From a virus, in the IMG/VR virus record IMGVR_UViG_3300021961_000280, positions 1 to 36,447 of that record: DNA of 36,447 nt; one strand, 5' to 3'. This document shows, piece after piece, positions 144-17,452 of this stretch. Under the pieces are notes generated by a model. The model saw only the letters and a program-made list of their open reading frames with translations, had not been told where the DNA came from and ran no database searches. The first letter of the stretch is position 1; every line of letters begins with the position of its first letter. The translations under genes and the position numbers were made by a program.

Positions 144-347
144 GACCGATGCCGTTTAAACAGCGTATAATCAGGGACTTAACCGCCGATTAAATGCATG
201 TTAACCGCCGAATAAGTTGCCTTGCGCACACACGTGTGTACGAGAAGCGACCCTTGGAGTCGTACACAGGTATGTACGTGTGTACGTACACAGGTGTGTA
301 CAGCGAGTCTGTGTACGTGTGTACGGCTTGGGTGATGATGTGTGTAC
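124..347. repeat. Iteron-like array of GTGTGTAC half-sites
   Basis: The octamer GTGTGTAC occurs at 124, 132, 234, 278, 294, 317 and 340, and again at 609 and 763. Some copies pair with GTACACA to form 16-bp near-palindromes at 262-277 and 286-301, with further ones at 532-547 (one mismatch) and 755-770. About 0.03 copies of an octamer would be expected in 809 bp by chance on both strands. Such arrays are typical of binding sites for a phage replication initiator or repressor. No cognate protein can be named; the HTH protein at 5333-6070 is one candidate. Confidence 0.75.
179..211. repeat. Direct repeat TTAACCGCCGA, two copies 22 bp apart
   Basis: TTAACCGCCGA is at 179-189 and again at 201-211. 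The 22-bp period is close to two helical turns, so a protein could bind both copies on one face of the DNA. It lies between two GTGTGTAC clusters. Confidence 0.6.
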
Positions 348-351
348 GCAC

Positions 352-379
352 GGGGCGAAGCCCCAAAAAAAGTTTTTTT
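352..379 (+). other. GGGGC-GAA-GCCCC hairpin followed by A7-G-T7
   Basis: A five-base GC stem (352-356 with 360-364) closes a GAA loop and is followed by seven A, one G and seven T. It has elements of an intrinsic terminator, but the A run intervenes before the T run and no gene precedes it on the plus strand unless transcription enters from the right-hand end of the genome. It may end the block 35038-36268 if the ends are joined. Confidence 0.4.
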
Positions 380-733
380 CGCCAAAGGCTTGACTTTTGT
401 TTGCCCCCCGATTACGTTGTTTGGGGCAGTCACCGATGTGGTGCTGTTGTACCTGTCGCTTGTCACTGGTGGTGCTTGACGGCAGGGCAGTGTGAGTAGC
501 GTCCGTGATGCGGTTGGCTCACATGGTGAACGTACACAAGTGTGTCCGTTGCACATGGGGAGTTCCCCCACAACAAGGGGAACGTTGATTCATGTGTCGT
601 GGACATACGTGTGTACGGTCACACCTAGGACGTGCGGTGTACGTGCCGACCTTTGGTCGGGATGAAGTTCGTGCTTAGCCGTCCTAGACAGCCCGTGTGT
701 AGGCACCTAGACTTCGTCTAGTCACCCATAGCA

Positions 734-739
734 TATAAT
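734..739 (+). promoter_or_regulatory. Promoter -10-like TATAAT upstream of the first early gene
   Basis: A perfect TATAAT lies about 70 bp before the first start codon (810). The -35 position (around 711-716) has only a poor match. Transcription would start near 746, just before the palindrome at 755-770. Confidence 0.45.
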
Positions 740-754
740 GGGAACGGGCACTAT

Positions 755-770
755 GTACACAAGTGTGTAC
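755..770. promoter_or_regulatory. Palindromic operator candidate GTACACA-AG-TGTGTAC
   Basis: A 16-bp palindrome with perfect 7-bp arms sits between the TATAAT at 734 and the first ribosome binding site. It is the cleanest member of the GTGTGTAC family and its position fits an operator for the early transcript. A hairpin with arms CGGTGAC/GTCACCG (774-790) follows directly. Confidence 0.55.
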
Positions 771-794
771 AGACGGTGACTTTGTCACCGAGAA

Positions 795-806
795 CCCTGA
801 GGAGGG
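795..806 (+). promoter_or_regulatory. Ribosome binding site inside small hairpin, first early gene
   Basis: CCCT (795-798) can pair with AGGG (803-806) around GAGG, so the strong Shine-Dalgarno GGAGGG before the ATG at 810 lies partly in a stem. It is the weakest of the ribosome-binding-site hairpins in this genome. Confidence 0.45.
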
Positions 807-809
807 ATT

Positions 810-1172
810 ATGAAAGTTCAAGATTTAGCACCTACGGTGACATCGTTCAAGGATGGTCAAGTATTGAAGGCTTCAACGTGGTCATCTACCGATGACATCG
901 TGTGGCTCGGCAATGCTAATTGCCGTCGTCGGACTATCACTAAAGTGAACACTGTCATGGCAGAGTTTCACTCTGCATGGGATGCCGACTTTGGAGTGTG
1001 GGACAGTTGGACTACTAAAGTAGTCTCAACTGGCTGGAATTCAAAAAGTGATGCCGAAGGCATCAACGCAATCTTTGCGAAGCAAGGTTGTCCAATTCGG
1101 ATGACTCGTAAGGGTGGCAATGCCAACTACGTTGGCACCAGCGGCAATGTCATTGAGTTGGGTTGCCACTAG
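810..1172 (+). CDS. Hypothetical early protein, 120 aa
   Basis: First gene of the rightward block, with a strong ribosome binding site three bases before ATG. I do not recognise the family. The protein is soluble-looking, with Trp-rich segments (HSAWDADFGVWDSW) and a short basic stretch (CRRRT) but no membrane segment. Its position directly behind the operator-like palindrome suggests an early host-takeover or regulatory role, which is inference. The DNA is packed with perfect hairpins: 908-925, 960-976, 1049-1065 and 1121-1137 each have 7-bp arms with 3-4-base loops. The stop codon lies in another hairpin (1166-1189). Confidence 0.8.
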   Translation: MKVQDLAPTVTSFKDGQVLKASTWSSTDDIVWLGNANCRRRTITKVNTVMAEFHSAWDADFGVWDSWTTKVVSTGWNSKSDAEGINAIFAKQGCPIRMTRKGGNANYVGTSGNVIELGCH

Positions 1173-1285
1173 TTCCTAGTAACTAGTGGTTGTCTCCGCC
1201 AACTGAACCTAGGGTTCAGGGATTCATCATCCCAGTTGGCACTACGGCAAGTTGCCGTCACGGTAACCATCGGAGATGGTCACCG
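1166..1285 (+). other. Structured intergenic RNA with consecutive hairpins
   Basis: Inverted repeats follow one another: CCACTAGTT (1166-1174) with 1181-1189; GCCAACTG (1198-1205) with 1233-1240, enclosing smaller stems 1203-1209/1213-1219 and 1219-1223/1229-1233; the palindrome ACGGCAAGTTGCCGT (1244-1258); and CGGTAACCAT (1261-1270) with 1276-1285 (one mismatch). Little of the gap is unpaired before the next ribosome binding site. It could be a processing or termination element or a leader controlling the next gene. No T-tract follows. Confidence 0.55.
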
Positions 1286-1291
1286 AAATCA

Positions 1292-1311
1292 CATAATGGA
1301 GGGTCATTATG
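1292..1311 (+). promoter_or_regulatory. Ribosome binding site in hairpin loop, includes the start codon
   Basis: CATAATG (1292-1298) pairs perfectly with CATTATG (1305-1311); the loop GAGGGT carries the Shine-Dalgarno, and the right arm contains the ATG at 1309. Opening a 7-bp stem would be needed to expose the start codon, so this may be a translational switch. Confidence 0.6.
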
Positions 1312-1608
1312 GAAAACCTAGACTTGACTGAAAGTCACATCATTATCGGCGTTGAGTTGGTGGAACAATTCGTAGAATTGGTCGCTAACTTTGACGACGA
1401 AACCTATCTCAACGACTTCTACGAAGATGTTGATTACAGTTGGGACGATGAAGGGGATTGTGAAACTGAAAGTTCCACAATCACTTACGATTATCGTTCC
1501 GACATTGTCGGTTACATCGGCACCTTGGTCATCGTAGATGAACAAATGGCAACTTGGACTCCACACGAAACTTTTAAGTTTCGTCTTAACAATCTCTTAA
1601 CCAAATAA
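1309..1608 (+). CDS. Very acidic hypothetical protein, 99 aa
   Basis: The protein has 24 Asp/Glu and only 4 Lys/Arg, with acidic clusters in residues 29-56 (DDE, ED, DDEGD). I do not recognise the family. Small, strongly acidic early phage proteins include DNA mimics such as Ocr that block restriction or other DNA-binding enzymes; similarity here is only in charge and size. The gene contains a 12-base-arm hairpin with one mismatch (1456-1482) and a perfect 8-bp hairpin near its end (1565-1584). Start chosen at the ATG behind GGAGGG. Confidence 0.75.
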   Translation: MENLDLTESHIIIGVELVEQFVELVANFDDETYLNDFYEDVDYSWDDEGDCETESSTITYDYRSDIVGYIGTLVIVDEQMATWTPHETFKFRLNNLLTK

Positions 1609-1610
1609 CA

Positions 1611-1628
1611 TTTACCTGAGGAGGTAAA
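1611..1628 (+). promoter_or_regulatory. Ribosome binding site in hairpin loop, AAA+ ATPase gene
   Basis: TTTACC (1611-1616) pairs with GGTAAA (1623-1628) around TGAGGA, so the Shine-Dalgarno GAGGAGG sits in the loop and right arm, ending three bases before ATG at 1631. The same arms recur before the capsid gene (26489-26506, minus strand). Confidence 0.6.
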
Positions 1629-1630
1629 AC

Positions 1631-2956
1631 ATGTCAGCATTACCAGCACCACGTATTGATTCCATCAATACGGAAACCAAGACGGTGACTTTCACTGTCA
1701 TCGCCACCAACGTTCAGTATGAACGTCACTACCTTGCACTGAAAAAGAATGCGTTGATTAAAGCGTGTTCTTTTGCTGGAATCAAATTCTACGGTGCCCC
1801 ACCGATGAAGTGGGACTTGGATAGAATCCAAGAAAAACTGAATAATTGGATGGATGCCGAACAGGAGGCAAAGCCTCCGCATCGTCAGCCATTCGCCACA
1901 CCAACACCAGCCCCTGAGGAGGAGCCAATGCCAAAACCAACCACACCGTCAACTGAAGTTGACGTTGCAATGCAAAACTTAATGGATGCCGTCCGACTTG
2001 CCTCCAAAGGAGGCATTGACAAGGACGAAGTCGTGGAAATTGTCACCCCGATGGTGTATGCCGTCAACCGTAAGGTTGACGATGTCAAAATTGGCGTAGA
2101 CAATCTAACGATTGCTGTCTCTGCCGAGATGGAGGCATTAAAGGAACAGATTGCATCTGTTATCCCGAACATCATTGAGGTTCATGTCCCCAACAAACCT
2201 GTAAAGGTTGTTGATGGGTTGACTCACTACCAATTCCCCAAGGTGCTTGCTCATCTTGCTAGTGGCAACCATGTTTTCATGGTTGGCAAGGCTGGCAGTG
2301 GTAAGACTTCCATTGCGGAGATGGCATCGGAAGCCTTAGGGATTCCGTTCTCTTCCAAGTCATGCACCTCTCAGACGACAGAGTCGTCGTTGGTTGGTTT
2401 CATGAATGCTACAGGGTACGTCAGTACTGAGTTTCGCAAGGCTTTTGAGTTTGGTCACGTGTTCAATCTTGATGAGATTGACCACGCCAACCCCAATGTT
2501 CTTGGTGTGTTGAACAGTGCCCTTGCCAATAAGCAGATGGCTTTCCCCGATGGGATGGTTACTCGTCACGACAATTTCATTGTCGTTGCCAGTGGCAATA
2601 CCTTTGGTACTGGTGCCACTGCTCAGTATGTTGGTGCCAACCCGATTGATGCGGCTACTAAGGACCGCTTCGCTGTAATGGAAATTCATTATGACGAAGC
2701 GATTGAGGATGCAATGGTTGCATCGGTTGGGCTTGAGAAGGCAGTCGCCACGAAGTGGCTTGCCACTGTCCGCAAGTGCCGTGTCAACGTTGACACTCAT
2801 GGATTGAAGATTGTGGTTTCACCACGTGCTTCAATGATTGGTGCCAAGATGTTGAAGTCGGGTGCTTTCACCAACATGGAAGTGTTGGAACAAGCCGTAC
2901 TCAAAGGCACGAAGCCTGACCAAACCGCCAAGGTACTTGATGGTGTCTCCTTCTAG
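1631..2956 (+). CDS. AAA+ ATPase, CobS/MoxR-like
   Basis: The N-terminal ~190 residues hold a Pro-rich, acidic linker (around 80-105) and coiled-coil-like segments. The ATPase core follows: Walker A GKAGSGKT at 219-226, Walker B FNLDEID at 278-284, and a sensor-1 region VVASGNTFGTG followed by DRF, as in the AAA_5/CobS/MoxR clade. These ATPases form hexameric rings that remodel partner proteins, often with a VWA-domain partner; the next gene may be that partner. The exact substrate is unknown. The gene carries at least 15 hairpins with arms of 6 bp or more (for example 9-bp arms at 1652-1672, 8-bp arms at 2062-2081, 2266-2285 and 2568-2586), and its stop codon lies in a 13-bp hairpin. Confidence 0.9.
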   Translation: MSALPAPRIDSINTETKTVTFTVIATNVQYERHYLALKKNALIKACSFAGIKFYGAPPMKWDLDRIQEKLNNWMDAEQEAKPPHRQPFATPTPAPEEEPMPKPTTPSTEVDVAMQNLMDAVRLASKGGIDKDEVVEIVTPMVYAVNRKVDDVKIGVDNLTIAVSAEMEALKEQIASVIPNIIEVHVPNKPVKVVDGLTHYQFPKVLAHLASGNHVFMVGKAGSGKTSIAEMASEALGIPFSSKSCTSQTTESSLVGFMNATGYVSTEFRKAFEFGHVFNLDEIDHANPNVLGVLNSALANKQMAFPDGMVTRHDNFIVVASGNTFGTGATAQYVGANPIDAATKDRFAVMEIHYDEAIEDAMVASVGLEKAVATKWLATVRKCRVNVDTHGLKIVVSPRASMIGAKMLKSGAFTNMEVLEQAVLKGTKPDQTAKVLDGVSF

Positions 2957-2968
2957 GAGGCACCATCA
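2938..2968 (+). other. 13-bp hairpin over the stop codon of the AAA+ gene
   Basis: Positions 2938-2950 pair with 2956-2968 (one G-U pair) around the loop TTCTA, which joins the TAG stop. There is no T-tract, so it is more likely a 3' stabilising or coupling structure than an intrinsic terminator. Confidence 0.5.
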
Positions 2969-2997
2969 CTACCGTAATCATTCCATAATCAACTCAC

Positions 2998-3011
2998 GTA
3001 CTGGGAGGTAC
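2998..3011 (+). promoter_or_regulatory. Ribosome binding site in hairpin loop
   Basis: GTAC (2998-3001) and GTAC (3008-3011) are complementary and enclose TGGGAG, placing the Shine-Dalgarno in the loop three bases before ATG at 3015. The stem is only 4 bp, so it is weaker evidence than its neighbours. Confidence 0.4.
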
Positions 3012-3014
3012 ACA

Positions 3015-3839
3015 ATGTTTACATTCAACGAAGGCAAGTATGTTGTTGAATCGTTTGATTCAATGCATGAGTTCATTAACATGGCTCAAAGTAATCCTAA
3101 TCCACAGTCGTCCGATGGTAATTCGGAATCGTTCGCTGGCACCAAGTCTCTTGGTGATGCTTGCACACTGGCTCATAATGGTTGGACGGAAGTTCGCCCC
3201 GACGTTGAACTATTGTTCAACGACTTGGAGTCACGTATTGCCGACAAGATTAGCGATAAGTTCCTAACTTATAATGACGTGGCAGGCTCCGAGATTGACA
3301 TGGGCATGTACATGTCGGGTGTTCCTGAACACATGATTGCTTTCAGCCCCGTGTTGGAAGCGACGATGGGTCGGGTCATTAAGATTCACGTTAGCCTTAC
3401 GGCTTCAGCATCCATTCCGAAAGAGGAAATCATGGCTCGTGGCGTTGCTGTCTGCGCTTTGATTGACACCATCCATAAGATGGGTGTTGGTGTGGAAATT
3501 TGGGGTGAGGATTCCATTATAGGGCACAACAGTAAACTGTTCGGAACACGTGTTCTGATTCACGACTCATCCGAAATGCTTGACATTGACAATGTCATGT
3601 TCGCCTTGGCTCATCCTAGTATGTTGCGTCGGCTCACGTTCAGCATCCAAGAACAATCACCTAACGCTAAGGCTCAGGGTGTGGGTGGTGGCTACGGTAC
3701 ACCTACCGACTTGTCTCCTATGGAGGCAGACGTGAAGATTGAACGGCTACAACGTGGCAGTGGCGACATAATCAAGGACCCTGTTGGTTGGGTTGTCAGT
3801 ACCGTCACTGGCTTAGGACTCATAGAGTCCGAAGATTAA
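3015..3839 (+). CDS. Probable partner of the AAA+ ATPase (DUF7192/VWA-like), 274 aa
   Basis: Start taken at the ATG behind GGGAGG; the frame is open further upstream but overlaps the ATPase gene. The segment with a GDACTLA-like motif, NGWTEVRPDVE, then SGSEIDMGMYMSG-like text, VPEHMI, and a beta-strand-rich core (IKIHVSLTASASI, GVAVCALIDTI, GVGVEIWG) resembles a phage family I remember as DUF7192, which looks like a VWA-type fold. Its place directly behind a CobS/MoxR-like ATPase fits an ATPase/VWA pair. Family name and partnership are from memory and context. Internal hairpins occur at 3203-3222, 3581-3597 and 3816-3830. Confidence 0.75.
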   Translation: MFTFNEGKYVVESFDSMHEFINMAQSNPNPQSSDGNSESFAGTKSLGDACTLAHNGWTEVRPDVELLFNDLESRIADKISDKFLTYNDVAGSEIDMGMYMSGVPEHMIAFSPVLEATMGRVIKIHVSLTASASIPKEEIMARGVAVCALIDTIHKMGVGVEIWGEDSIIGHNSKLFGTRVLIHDSSEMLDIDNVMFALAHPSMLRRLTFSIQEQSPNAKAQGVGGGYGTPTDLSPMEADVKIERLQRGSGDIIKDPVGWVVSTVTGLGLIESED

Positions 3840-3849
3840 TATGAATACC

Positions 3850-3883
3850 GTGACATGGTGGGGACCCTCCCCCACCATGTCAC
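3850..3883 (+). terminator. Perfect 14-bp hairpin, terminator-like but without a U-tract
   Basis: GTGACATGGTGGGG (3850-3863) pairs perfectly with 3870-3883 around a 6-base loop, 11 bp after the stop codon of the preceding gene. It is followed by TCCCCTATAG rather than a T-run. It may terminate, attenuate or protect the upstream transcript's 3' end. Confidence 0.6.
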
Positions 3884-12199: not shown

Positions 12200-15100
12200 C
12201 TATTTCTTCTTAAGTTTGTCTTGTTTTTCCAGTATCTTTGCAAACTCTTTCACCTCAAACTGGCGACTGATTGCTTCGCTTCGCTGTTGGTCAGGACCAA
12301 TCTCCCTGACAGGCAAACCCAACCAGTTAGCCCACGACGATAACGTCCTCTCCTTATAGGATTCCTTACCACCTATATTGCCACCAGTAATACCTTGACC
12401 TAGACGTTGTAACACCGCAATAGGTGGCAACACTGCACCACCAAAGTACTGTGCCTTAGGTGTAACCATAAGTTTGCCAGTCTTAGGGTCACGTCCACCC
12501 AAAGGTTCAATACCAGTTTTCTCACCAACCCAAGCAAGAGCAGCGTCCAATCCTTTAGCCTCAACCACACGGTCCTGATTAAAAGGAATGTCCATAGCAG
12601 CCTGTTTATTTATAACGGCTAACTCTATTGGTACTTTAATCAGTGGGTTCAACTGTCCAATAAACTTTGCGTTTAAAGGGTTCATGCTTTCAAGTGTTTG
12701 AGACAACCTTGCCTGAGGCATATCGGGCGCAAGAACAAGATTGCCAGTAACACCCATAGGCTTAATCACTGATAACCATTTAGGCAAAAAGATATCTTCT
12801 TCAACAGGGTTAGCCTCTTGAAGTTTCTCGTATGTTGCGTATGCGCTAGGTCGTGACCATTGGCTCGCAACCTGCAGTGGCAGGTTACGACTAGTCCAAA
12901 TCCAAAACGGTACAATGTTATGCATAAACTTATCTAGCGAGGACAAATCTGTATAATCAAAATGGTACATAGTGACACGGTTAACTGCTTGGTCAAAGGA
13001 ATGTCCACGCAAAACAGAATCCAATGCCATCGGCAAACGCATAGAACGTTCGGTAAACTCATTAAGTTTGCCGAACCCTCTAGTGAATTTATTGTTAATG
13101 ACTGCTTCAGCAAAGCCACCACCAACAACAGGTTCAGCCAACGAGTCACCAAAGCCACGACTAGTTACACGTGTCACATCCCAAGCCCTCCTGTAAGATG
13201 CATGCAACTCTTTTGGTATATTCATTTTCTCTAGCCAGTTTTCGCCATGCCTTTGTATAGCCCAAGACATACGTGCGCCTTCAAGAATATTCTTTGTTTC
13301 AACACCAGCAACATAGTTCATAAACGTTGCAGACATAGCGTTACGCACAGCAAAACCAGGAGATGCAACAGCGTACGTTTTAAACAAACGAGTATAATAA
13401 CGATACGGACCATCCAAAGCCTTCAAGATTTCTTTATCTTCCAACTTCCTTATGTTAGGTCCCCATTGAGAAATGAGTTCGTCAGGAACTTGAACACCTA
13501 AAGCAGCGATTGCTTCCCAACCTTTTTGCACCTGATACTGAAATGTAGGTGAACCAAGAAAACCTTTTTTGACAGCATCAATTTCCATTAAGTTAGCAGG
13601 CAACTTGTTGTACGTTAACATAGCCAACTTTGCTTCATCAGCATGCAACTGTTTAACAACACGGGCATAAGCCTTACCATCATTAGGACCAAGAACATCT
13701 ATAGCCTTAATGGACGCTTGAACTTTTTTAGCCCACGCACCAGTCTGCATACCAGCAGCCTTCTTGCTAGGTTTCTGAAGAAGAATTGCATTCAAGTTAT
13801 CAATCTCAGCCTGCAACTTGACACCGACTTCTTCGTTCCATCGTTGCAATACTTCAGCCTGATTAAACAACATAGGCAAACGTTCCTGATAAGTAGCCTG
13901 CTTCTTCAACAACTGTGGCAAACCAGCGTCACGTTCAATTTGTGCAATAACTTTTTCTAAAGCAGCCTCCTGCTTAGCGACCTGCTTGTCTACGTCAGCC
14001 ATCATCTTCAAACCTTGTTCACGTGTCAACGCAGTACGTTTACCATTGATAACAACGTTAATAGTTTTAGACTTCTCATACTGAGCCATTGCTGCTTCAG
14101 TAGCCTTGACTGTACGATTACTTCTTTTTGTGACAGCACCTTTCTGTGCAGAAAGTGAACGTTGCTGTGCAGCCAAAACTTCAATTTGTCCATCAGTTAA
14201 TTCTGCTTGCATCAAATTGTCAGCAACATCGCTAATGCGTTGTTGCGTATCAAGACTTACGGTTTCGTAATCGCTATTAAGGATACGTTGTACCAAAGTA
14301 CTTTCAGCCACACGCTGTACAGGTTCTTCCGAACTTATAAATGTTCCAGTCTTAGGAACACTTCTGCTCCATTCAGGTTTCATCAACACATCAAACTTGC
14401 CAACCAAATCAGGATGCATACCATTAGAAATAGTACTAGGTATAATCATGCCATTATAGTTGGTGCCTGCAATCATGTTGCCGATTATGTCGTCCATCAT
14501 TTGTTTTGCGACAGTATCTATCTCGTCATAAAATTCTTCAGGAACTTCAAAAAATTCTTCACCAACAGCAGGAGTTGGATTGTTCGCAACATGACGCAAC
14601 TGGTCATCCAGTGAATCAAAAATCATCACAAGCGTATCCTCGTCAAATGTTTCCTGAGGCAACGTAGCAAAGTCACCAATAAGTTTAATTAACTCTGCTT
14701 GCTCAGGACGTTTAAAAGCAAAGACTTCGTCAATGTCATTTCCTGAAAAATAAGATAATGCTTGCTGTTCAAAATCTGTATCCATGTAATCAATGACTCT
14801 TGCATTCTTCAAAGATTCCGTAAGAATCTTTGGCATATTAGGATTTCCTATTGTCATACGGAAATCTTCACCATTACGCAAATCAATCAAAGTACTTTGG
14901 TCAGGTGCATGCATTGCTACAGCATCAGGGTTATTAGCAAAATTATTATCAGGTGGATAAGTTGTAAGCCTACGATAATTTGTAGTACCTTCAGGCAATG
15001 GTCCGAAGTCATCAACATAACCGTACACAAACCCATCAGGTGAATACGACTCATTGAAACGTACCATAGTTAAAGCAGAGATACCGTCAACATGGTCCTG

Positions 15101-17452
15101 TAAATCATTTAACTCATCAATCAAAACTCTACGAGTTTCTTCGTTCTCAATAGTCGGAGCCAATTCATCAATTTGCGTGGACAAGTCAGCCATACGTTGC
15201 TCAATATGTTTTGTTTCTTTAGCAACATTAACTTTATTCTTGCGCAGAATATCCGCAGCCAAACGGTCAGGGTTGTCTGGAATTTTACGTGCATCAGGAA
15301 ACAACTTTACATAATGTTCTTTAAGAACCTGCACCGCAGCACCATGACTATCTTCGCTGGAATTAAGAGCCGCACGTAAACGACGTTGCAAATCATATAA
15401 TGCTTTATGCACATCAGCATAAGCACCACGTTCCGCCACCGACTTTGTCCTCGCTACCTCATACGATTGGACTAAAGCAACCTCAACATCATTAAGTAGT
15501 TTTTCTGTATTTTTAATTTCAGCAGCATTTTTAGTTACCGCCTTGCCTTGTGTCCTCAAAACTTTTTCAGCAAGTTCAACTGAATCACTGCCAAATTTAG
15601 CAATACTTTTACCACCAATATAAACAGCGTTGCGCAATTTGAATTGCGCACTAATCAACTTGCCATGAATAATACCCAAGTCACGTTGAAGAATTTTATC
15701 AGGAACAGTTTTCTTAATTAAAGGTTTAATATACTCAGGACCAAAGTCCATCATACGCCGTGCCCATGCTTCTCTACCCATTGTCTTAGACATTGAATAA
15801 GAATACGCATCAGCAATAGAACCTAAATCTGTTTCAAACCACTTAACACCAGCCTTGTCGGGGCGCATACTAATTTCATTAATCTCTTTAATTGTGCCAG
15901 TCTGCAAAGTCTCACCCATAAATTTGTCGCCAGCCTTAAGTTTGCGGTGACGAACAGCGCCAATAGCGCCAGTCAAATCATTTATACTAAGGTCAGCAGT
16001 TTGGAACCAACTACCTGCATAACGTTTACCTTGACCTAACACCCATTTACGTGCTTCTTTAGTTAGTTTGTGGTGGACATAATCCTCCACAAACCCAACC
16101 TCTTTAGTGTCAACACCATAATTTAAACCAAACTTTGAGTAAACCTCATTGACTTCACCACGAACTTTTGTTTGCCATGCCATAAACGATTCAGCCAAAG
16201 CACGTGCTTCAGGGGCAGCAGCAGCCCTATCAACTTCTGACTCAATAAGTTGCGCTATGTCATCAATAACGCCAGCCTCTCTAGCGGCATCAATTAAAGG
16301 TTTCGCTTCAGCAATCCACCTACCATGAGAAGCAATACCAGCCGCTTTAGCATAACGGTCAGCGGATGTCCCTGATATATTTTTTATAACACGTTCGTCG
16401 CTAAGAACATTCATGTCTTTACCACGATAACCAACACCAGCAACAACGCCAGTCTTACGACTGGCTGGTGCTACAGCCTGTTGTAATGCCCTACCTTTGT
16501 CGCTTCTATAAAGAAAGTCACCAATAGCAGTACGTGTCCTAGTGACAGGTGCGATTAAACCTTCAGCAACAGTTTCAGTATTTGGAACAATGCTTCCAGC
16601 AAAACGAATACCATTCGTGATGCCTTCAGCAGCACGAATCTCTTTAGGTATAGCAGCAGTGCCGTAACGGACAATGTCATCAAGTTTTCCTGCCATCTGC
16701 GGATACTTCTTCAACATTGCTTCTTCGCCAAACTTTAACGCCAATGCCGAACGACCTGCACGACCAGCCCATTGCAGTTCGCCAACACCAGTATAAGTTA
16801 AAGGGTCAGCAACGACATCAATACCAAACCCCATAGCAGTGTCAAACCATTTAGCACCAGTTTTGTAACGGTCCTCTTTCTTTAATGACCATTCAGGGTC
16901 ACGGGCACGTGACAACATCTTTCCAAAACTAGTCCACTCAACATTCTTTTTCCAACTATCATTACCAGTAATTTCAGCAATAGCCATGTTGGTCAAGTTT
17001 GTTGCTGGTTGTGCAAAAGCATAATCAACAACACTTTGAACCGTTCGGCTAGGCATAGCAATAATATCTTTAGTAACAGGATTTTTGCTTGCACTATAAA
17101 GGGGTCCAAGAGCAGTATCTAAAACTGTGTTCTTTAACACACCAAAAAGTTTATTATCAGTCCACGTTTTGTTTTTACCACCAGCACCAACACGTTTTAA
17201 TTCAGCAAGAATTTTCTCGTACTCGTTTTTATCACCAGCAGTTTTAATACGGCTAGCAACAGATTTAATAGACTTATCTAGTTTTCTTTTCTCATCATCA
17301 AAACTAGTTTTGTTAACAGAAGTACCACTATTACCTGAAGGCTTTATCTGTAAAGTTGATTCATATGTACTGGATGATGGTGATGTTCCACTATCACTAA
17401 CGGGTGTGGGTTTCGGATATTGAGTTTTAAAAGGTGACTTGTATACAACCAT
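12200..17452 (-). CDS. Giant internal virion / DNA-ejection protein candidate, 1750 aa
   Basis: At 1750 residues it takes up a seventh of the genome. The N-terminus is Ser/Thr/Pro-rich and low complexity, the middle is helical with coiled-coil stretches (for example LQRWNEEVGVKLQAEIDNLN), and the C-terminal ~400 residues include FAVRNAMSATFMNYVAG and a PFWIWTSRNLPLQVA segment, a pattern I associate with large phage internal proteins. No catalytic motif is certain. Large helical proteins in this place of podovirus genomes form the ejection conduit. The start follows GGAAG inside the end of the upstream gene. Confidence 0.8.
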   Translation of the reverse strand: MVVYKSPFKTQYPKPTPVSDSGTSPSSSTYESTLQIKPSGNSGTSVNKTSFDDEKRKLDKSIKSVASRIKTAGDKNEYEKILAELKRVGAGGKNKTWTDNKLFGVLKNTVLDTALGPLYSASKNPVTKDIIAMPSRTVQSVVDYAFAQPATNLTNMAIAEITGNDSWKKNVEWTSFGKMLSRARDPEWSLKKEDRYKTGAKWFDTAMGFGIDVVADPLTYTGVGELQWAGRAGRSALALKFGEEAMLKKYPQMAGKLDDIVRYGTAAIPKEIRAAEGITNGIRFAGSIVPNTETVAEGLIAPVTRTRTAIGDFLYRSDKGRALQQAVAPASRKTGVVAGVGYRGKDMNVLSDERVIKNISGTSADRYAKAAGIASHGRWIAEAKPLIDAAREAGVIDDIAQLIESEVDRAAAAPEARALAESFMAWQTKVRGEVNEVYSKFGLNYGVDTKEVGFVEDYVHHKLTKEARKWVLGQGKRYAGSWFQTADLSINDLTGAIGAVRHRKLKAGDKFMGETLQTGTIKEINEISMRPDKAGVKWFETDLGSIADAYSYSMSKTMGREAWARRMMDFGPEYIKPLIKKTVPDKILQRDLGIIHGKLISAQFKLRNAVYIGGKSIAKFGSDSVELAEKVLRTQGKAVTKNAAEIKNTEKLLNDVEVALVQSYEVARTKSVAERGAYADVHKALYDLQRRLRAALNSSEDSHGAAVQVLKEHYVKLFPDARKIPDNPDRLAADILRKNKVNVAKETKHIEQRMADLSTQIDELAPTIENEETRRVLIDELNDLQDHVDGISALTMVRFNESYSPDGFVYGYVDDFGPLPEGTTNYRRLTTYPPDNNFANNPDAVAMHAPDQSTLIDLRNGEDFRMTIGNPNMPKILTESLKNARVIDYMDTDFEQQALSYFSGNDIDEVFAFKRPEQAELIKLIGDFATLPQETFDEDTLVMIFDSLDDQLRHVANNPTPAVGEEFFEVPEEFYDEIDTVAKQMMDDIIGNMIAGTNYNGMIIPSTISNGMHPDLVGKFDVLMKPEWSRSVPKTGTFISSEEPVQRVAESTLVQRILNSDYETVSLDTQQRISDVADNLMQAELTDGQIEVLAAQQRSLSAQKGAVTKRSNRTVKATEAAMAQYEKSKTINVVINGKRTALTREQGLKMMADVDKQVAKQEAALEKVIAQIERDAGLPQLLKKQATYQERLPMLFNQAEVLQRWNEEVGVKLQAEIDNLNAILLQKPSKKAAGMQTGAWAKKVQASIKAIDVLGPNDGKAYARVVKQLHADEAKLAMLTYNKLPANLMEIDAVKKGFLGSPTFQYQVQKGWEAIAALGVQVPDELISQWGPNIRKLEDKEILKALDGPYRYYTRLFKTYAVASPGFAVRNAMSATFMNYVAGVETKNILEGARMSWAIQRHGENWLEKMNIPKELHASYRRAWDVTRVTSRGFGDSLAEPVVGGGFAEAVINNKFTRGFGKLNEFTERSMRLPMALDSVLRGHSFDQAVNRVTMYHFDYTDLSSLDKFMHNIVPFWIWTSRNLPLQVASQWSRPSAYATYEKLQEANPVEEDIFLPKWLSVIKPMGVTGNLVLAPDMPQARLSQTLESMNPLNAKFIGQLNPLIKVPIELAVINKQAAMDIPFNQDRVVEAKGLDAALAWVGEKTGIEPLGGRDPKTGKLMVTPKAQYFGGAVLPPIAVLQRLGQGITGGNIGGKESYKERTLSSWANWLGLPVREIGPDQQRSEAISRQFEVKEFAKILEKQDKLKKK

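Follow-up and report, generated by a model that had tools for sequence, protein, structure and literature searches.

What kind of selection, if any, fills the early genes of a DNA phage with short, perfect hairpins? The question is raised by positions 810–3839 of the virus record IMGVR_UViG_3300021961_000280 (IMG/VR), which was analysed over its whole length of 36 447 bases (the window) and has a podovirus-type gene content. A preliminary description of this DNA had listed 24 hairpins here and had proposed either that structure is selected in mRNA or in single-stranded DNA (ssDNA) or that a template-switch process perfects quasi-palindromes. Our analysis supports selection and disfavours template switching.

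Hairpin excess in the early genes

Counting only Watson–Crick stems of at least 6 bp with loops of 3–8 bases, positions 810–3839 contain 36 hairpins, compared with 3.8 (standard deviation 1.4) expected from dinucleotide shuffles; for stems of at least 7 bp the count is 25 compared with 1.0. Stricter shuffles (1000 per gene; loops of 3–6 bases) keep the protein, the codon counts and all dinucleotides and leave roughly 80–90% of the bases unmoved. Against these, the AAA+ ATPase gene contains 15 hairpins (shuffle mean 2.9, maximum 9) and the DUF7192 gene contains seven (mean 1.5, maximum 5), with none of the 1000 shuffles reaching the observed count in either gene. The saturation asserted by the preliminary description is thus borne out, and the similar counts in shuffled genes that would have spoken against it were not obtained. 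The open reading frame (ORF) at 810–1172 has six hairpins compared with 2.3 (five of 1000 shuffles reach six), and the count in ORF 1309–1608 is not significant by the same procedure. The excess extends beyond coding sequence: the gap of 136 bases between two early genes (1173–1308) is 60% hairpin. In unrelated viral contigs the observed/expected ratio is 1.3, and there is no excess in the final 2.5 kb of the window (33.9–36.4 kb), where three plus-strand genes closely precede the hairpin zone.

All 24 hairpins listed previously exist, 21 as single perfect hairpins and three with one imperfect pair: 1681–1699 (one G–T pair, as had been stated), 2938–2968 (13 of 14 paired, one T–G) and 1456–1482 (11 of 12 paired, one A–C). 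Further hairpins were absent from that list, including 1010–1025, 1166–1189, 1203–1219, 1244–1258, 1266–1280, 1292–1311, 1611–1628, 2463–2481, 3046–3063, 3140–3156 and 3256–3272; it had also not been seen that the hairpins form a single localized zone that begins abruptly and that only some relatives possess.

Distribution among relatives and constraint on the stems

Relatives were collected as 39 related loci via the helicase and 79 via a DUF7192 profile (of 206 reported), with contigs partly shared. Early hairpin density, measured over the AAA+ and DUF7192 genes, is bimodal: about 33 genomes lie near chance (0.7–4.4 per kb) and 44 lie at 8–17 per kb, with few between. Saturated and unsaturated genomes were separated at 7 per kb, a value chosen after viewing the histogram; two loci that are 96% identical in the early region (L131 and L133) have 5.9 and 8.5 per kb, near the bimodal gap. 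The zone is a single stretch of 4–5 kb of early genes in about half of this uncultured freshwater phage family. Among near-complete genomes (16 saturated, 15 unsaturated), the saturated ones display one peak, with 13.9, 10.3, 7.3 and 4.6 hairpins per kb around DUF7192, and outside the peak the two groups are equal at about 2.2 per kb. This background is common to the whole family and in the window amounts to about 2–3 times the dinucleotide shuffles. The density rises as a step, mostly 1.5–3 kb upstream of DUF7192, and then falls off across about 4 kb. Within saturated zones it is similar in coding and non-coding sequence (10.1 and 12.0 per kb, respectively). No constant promoter position could be resolved where the zone begins, and a CCGATTA repeat considered as a common upstream element is not conserved.

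On a four-protein tree the saturated or unsaturated state switched at least six times, all switches being required by well-supported branches. None of 64 gene families tracks the trait after multiple testing. The possibility that the AAA+ and DUF7192 genes themselves carry it was rejected on their homologues in cultured phages of Mycobacterium, Gordonia, Tunturiibacter and Rhizobium, which have little or no excess. A podovirus from Manatee Spring (L010; MW202803.1) has a milder hairpin excess of about threefold that is genome-wide.

The stems are constrained at synonymous sites. In pairs of saturated genomes, divergence at four-fold sites is 0.133 in stems, 0.202 in loops and 0.254 elsewhere, and at two-fold sites 0.087, 0.172 and 0.153, respectively, where counts from different genome pairs are not independent. 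One-sided stem changes are depleted (0.056 compared with 0.090 when the partner is slid by three; overlapping pairs), and double changes in stems are nearly doubled, with 69% restoring a Watson–Crick pair (overlapping pairs). Direct reading of the sequences reveals a deletion matched between the two arms of a stem, and loops that change while their stems stay. The preliminary description had called for a search for compensating changes, and these are present in excess; together with the synonymous conservation of stems and the recurrence in distant relatives, they support its suggestion that structure is under selection. Enrichment is highest for stems with three or four G–C pairs, the G–C share drops from short to long stems and very G–C-rich stems are under-represented. 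Such patterns are in keeping with selection for hairpins of good but not extreme stability, and unconstrained template switching does not fit them. Linkers of fewer than 12 bases between neighbouring hairpins of saturated genomes number 41 compared with 90 expected, as if something requires room between hairpins.

The stems carry no sequence motif beyond loop and closing-pair preferences, nor is there one in the 15 bases that flank them on each side (780 hairpins), and an explanation by protein sites or sequence motifs was rejected on these grounds. Intrinsic terminators were ruled out by the absence of T runs after the hairpins: T is not enriched on the 3′ side and terminator-like sites are not above shuffles. 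Searches of Rfam matched no known RNA family.

DNA or RNA as the folding molecule

The loop sequences suggest that the DNA strand itself folds. C(GNA)G triloops are enriched 11.7-fold, the closing pair of triloops is C–G in 51% compared with G–C in 8%, and two-base loops number 160 compared with 16 expected, with those closed by T–A strongly enriched. GNA triloops closed by C–G and two-base loops with a pyrimidine–purine closing pair are exceptionally stable in DNA and not in RNA. GNRA loops occur at 0.5 times expectation and TNCG loops in none of 295 cases, compared with about threefold GNRA enrichment in six RNA phages, which have no similar bias in triloop closure or towards TNNA (small numbers); in the saturated genomes themselves, genes further downstream show the loop bias only weakly. 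The promoter hairpin of phage N4, a proven DNA hairpin, contains a sheared G:A pair in its three-base loop (PMC4496689). Stems with one G–T pair, tested like all single-mismatch stems against shuffles that ignore coding, are enriched about 2.3-fold (range 2.3–2.6) compared with 31-fold for perfect stems, and at equal RNA folding energy 1.7–3.8-fold compared with 8–26-fold for pure Watson–Crick stems. Toy Metropolis chains, run under RNA energies on random letters in place of natural sequences, predict about 8.5-fold for G–T stems at the observed enrichment, compared with the 2.3–2.6-fold observed. Between the mRNA and the ssDNA that had been offered as alternatives, loops and wobble pairs thus favour DNA, as judged from sequence. 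Four loop asymmetries, all in one direction, point to the sense strand (p from 0.015 to 6 × 10⁻⁵).

Several observations weigh against folding of the DNA sense strand. RNA phages too lag in wobble use, perhaps since both strands fold, so that wobble alone is not decisive; the loops carry more weight. In close pairs of genomes, which are not independent of one another, G–U exceeds A–C by 183:113, as would also be expected of RNA; as a sole test for RNA this ratio was discarded as not discriminating, MS2 giving 18:20. Among the enriched tetraloops (TNNA and TNNG), not all are classic loops of DNA. Minimum free energy z-scores are equally low on the antisense and sense strands, and the strand claim therefore rests on the loops and a weak wobble bias.

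With these reservations, we tentatively propose, at somewhat less than an even chance, that the sense (plus) strand of the early-gene zone is selected to fold as ssDNA into short hairpins, the strand being exposed at the start of replication or transcription. The hairpins, with 6–8 Watson–Crick pairs and tight loops of 2–4 bases, usually at least 12 bases apart and fitted to the reading frame, would form on a plus strand displaced where replication or early transcription begins (as lagging-strand template or non-template strand). This strand would be single-stranded just downstream of the upstream spacer, and its exposure would fall with distance from the spacer. The hairpins would cover the strand, give many interchangeable start sites for replication proteins, or both; genes for a DnaB-type helicase and an AEP primase lie near the zone. 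Relatives lacking it would start in another way or encounter a different host factor. That we are dealing with a novel type of genome element, namely a selected ssDNA-hairpin zone over protein-coding genes that is repeatedly switched on and off in one phage family, seems to us close to an even proposition, falling just short of it.

Perfection of stems without selection, by template switching at quasi-palindromes in exposed ssDNA, would produce the perfect Watson–Crick stems with all mismatch types similarly rare, and also the compensating double changes and the paired indel. It is disfavoured because stem sites evolve at about half the rate of other synonymous sites; neither the stability window (short stems richer in G–C, very G–C-rich stems under-represented) nor the differences between close pairs, which are mostly single-base and not arm-wide, agree with it, and we consider it very unlikely. 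Structure in mRNA, in which a densely folded early transcript would act against host RNases or RNA-targeting defences, RNA polymerase backtracking, Rho loading or R-loops, has more in its favour: the zone follows one transcription direction, with a sharp start and a decay resembling a transcription unit, folding z-scores equal those of the RNA phages MS2 and Qbeta, the loop asymmetry lies on the sense strand, close pairs contain more G–U than A–C, and Shine–Dalgarno-like motifs lie in or beside loops (1292–1311 and 1611–1628). Wobble stems, however, are far less enriched than equally stable Watson–Crick stems and than the toy RNA chains predict, GNRA and UNCG loops are rare or absent while GNA triloops and two-base loops are favoured, and the antisense strand is structured as much as the sense strand; mRNA structure appears rather unlikely.

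Two further explanations were considered. Cruciforms extruded from negatively supercoiled DNA, taking up supercoils or serving for recognition while the genome enters the cell or early genes are transcribed, would resemble the promoter hairpins of N4, for which extrusion in vivo is described at the end of the genome that enters first (PMC4496689); the stem and loop sizes, the C(GGA)G and C(GAA)G loops and the restriction of the zone to one early region agree with this. A cruciform holds both strands folded together, and the loop asymmetry towards the sense strand, which is not expected of it, speaks against this explanation, as does the failure of Pfam, PHROGs and PDB sequence searches and a motif scan to find a virion RNA polymerase; we regard it as improbable. 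Escape from a nucleic-acid-guided defence, in which self-folding CRISPR spacers or Argonaute guides would fail and which would matter in some hosts only, is consistent with the on/off pattern across relatives and with linkers of 12–40 bases between hairpins in dense parts. It gives no reason for the strand asymmetry, no flanking motif such as a protospacer-adjacent motif is present, and its probability appears low indeed.

The hairpins amount to a second code over genes, one that is strong, can be measured and is switched on or off between relatives, with a signature pointing to DNA and not RNA. The same genes, available as saturated and unsaturated homologues, provide a natural comparison set for the role of ssDNA or unwound DNA at the start of infection. 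Should the structure instead reside in mRNA, the hairpin density of that mRNA would be unusually high for a DNA phage, and its short perfect hairpins denser than those of MS2.

Genome context and comparison with known systems

Similarity and profile searches of the window matched a terminase, a DnaB-like helicase, an AEP primase, RusA and a PD-(D/E)XK nuclease. Plus-strand genes extend from 35.0 kb across the contig joint to 11.7 kb, and the minus strand contains the late genes. A direct repeat of 143 bases at both contig ends (1–143 and 36305–36447; two mismatches, at positions 10 and 133) indicates that the genome is probably complete; since an exact assembler overlap would carry no mismatches, the repeat may be genuinely terminal or represent two variants. 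The spacer from 36.3 to 0.8 kb carries a cluster of TGTGTAC sites and may be an origin or promoter region. Many of the 14 sites at 115–772 are near-palindromes (e.g. TGTACACAAGTGTGTACA) and are operator- or iteron-like. A protein of 1750 amino acids (window 12200–17452) is kept throughout the family, had no match in Pfam, PHROG and PDB sequence searches and is possibly an ejected or internal virion protein. Bacterial genomes were scanned once for a host and none was found. Feature coordinates are collected in Table 1.

Table 1. Positions of the hairpin zone, its genes and individual hairpins in the window.
Feature	Positions	Strand	Details
Hairpin-saturated zone (upstream spacer and early genes)	261–3839	+	Density falls further downstream to about 5 kb
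Non-coding spacer	115–772	Not assigned	14 TGTGTAC sites; zone start; candidate regulatory or origin region
AAA+ ATPase gene	1631–2956	+	PHROG 249, Pfam AAA_5; richest in hairpins among genes
DUF7192 gene	3015–3839	+	PHROG 1909; probable start ATG 3015; ORF finder start GTG 2862
Hairpin, leader	754–771	+	7 bp, loop 4
Hairpin, leader	774–790	+	7 bp, loop 3
Hairpin	881–896	+	6 bp, loop 4
Hairpin	908–925	+	7 bp, loop 4
Hairpin	960–976	+	7 bp, loop 3
Hairpin	1010–1025	+	6 bp, loop 4
Hairpin	1049–1065	+	7 bp, C(GAA)G triloop
Hairpin	1121–1137	+	7 bp, loop 3 (TAC)
Hairpin over a stop codon	1166–1189	+	9 bp, loop 6
Hairpin, intergenic	1203–1219	+	7 bp, loop 3
Hairpin, intergenic	1244–1258	+	6 bp, loop 3
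Hairpin, intergenic	1266–1280	+	6 bp, loop 3 (GGA)
Hairpin	1292–1311	+	7 bp, loop 6 with Shine–Dalgarno-like GGAGGG; 3′ arm end is start codon of ORF 1309–1608
Hairpin	1366–1380	+	6 bp, loop 3
Hairpin	1565–1584	+	8 bp, loop 4
Hairpin just 5′ of AAA+ start	1611–1628	+	7 bp, loop 4; Shine–Dalgarno-like GAGGAGG in loop and 3′ arm
Hairpin	1652–1672	+	9 bp, loop 3
Hairpin	1710–1726	+	7 bp, loop 3
Hairpin	1816–1832	+	7 bp, loop 3
Hairpin	1864–1878	+	6 bp, loop 3
Hairpin	1947–1964	+	7 bp, C(TGAA)G loop
Hairpin	1999–2015	+	7 bp, loop 3
Hairpin	2062–2081	+	8 bp, loop 4
Hairpin	2145–2161	+	7 bp, loop 3
Hairpin	2266–2285	+	8 bp, loop 4
Hairpin	2374–2388	+	6 bp, loop 3
Hairpin	2463–2481	+	7 bp, loop 5
Hairpin	2568–2586	+	8 bp, loop 3
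Hairpin	2708–2724	+	7 bp, loop 3
Hairpin	2781–2796	+	6 bp, loop 4
Hairpin	3046–3063	+	7 bp, loop 4
Hairpin	3140–3156	+	7 bp, loop 3
Hairpin	3203–3222	+	8 bp, loop 4
Hairpin	3256–3272	+	7 bp, loop 3
Hairpin	3581–3597	+	7 bp, loop 3
Hairpin	3816–3830	+	6 bp, loop 3
Hairpin past DUF7192 stop	3850–3883	+	14 bp, loop 6; no T run after it

We could match the zone to no described system, and searches of open papers for it and for neighbouring phenomena, an incomplete coverage of the literature, yielded no description of such a zone. Integron attC and other folded ssDNA recombination sites function via one folded DNA strand, which would also be the functional form here; unlike attC, the zone has no conserved boxes, no integrase was found and the hairpins lie within genes. 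Single-strand initiation and primosome hairpins (phiX174 PAS, ColE1, and the complementary-strand origins of G4 and M13) are located close to an origin, on DNA whose strand has been displaced. The present hairpins would likewise lie on a displaced strand near a candidate origin, but there are dozens of apparently interchangeable ones in place of one or two defined sites. The RNA phages MS2 and Qbeta, with genome-scale ordered RNA structure, share hairpin-rich coding sequence and similar folding z-scores, whereas the phage studied here is a DNA phage with one peak of 4–5 kb instead of genome-wide structure, and RNA-type use of wobble pairs and GNRA/UNCG loops is not seen in it. The early promoters of the N4 virion RNA polymerase differ in being three conserved promoters of fixed sequence, compared with dozens of motif-free hairpins mostly inside genes; the left 2 kb of N4 holds just 10 hairpins compared with 2.6, and no virion RNA polymerase match was obtained here in sequence-level searches, the 1750-residue protein included. 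They are alike in their short stem, C–G closure and three-base loop with a sheared G···A pair (PMC4496689). A subset of the present hairpins, whose stems are of 6–8 bp, has these N4-type features (5–7 bp, three-base loop, G···A, C–G closure), and in both cases folding would occur at the level of DNA, as read here from sequence, in the early region of a podovirus.

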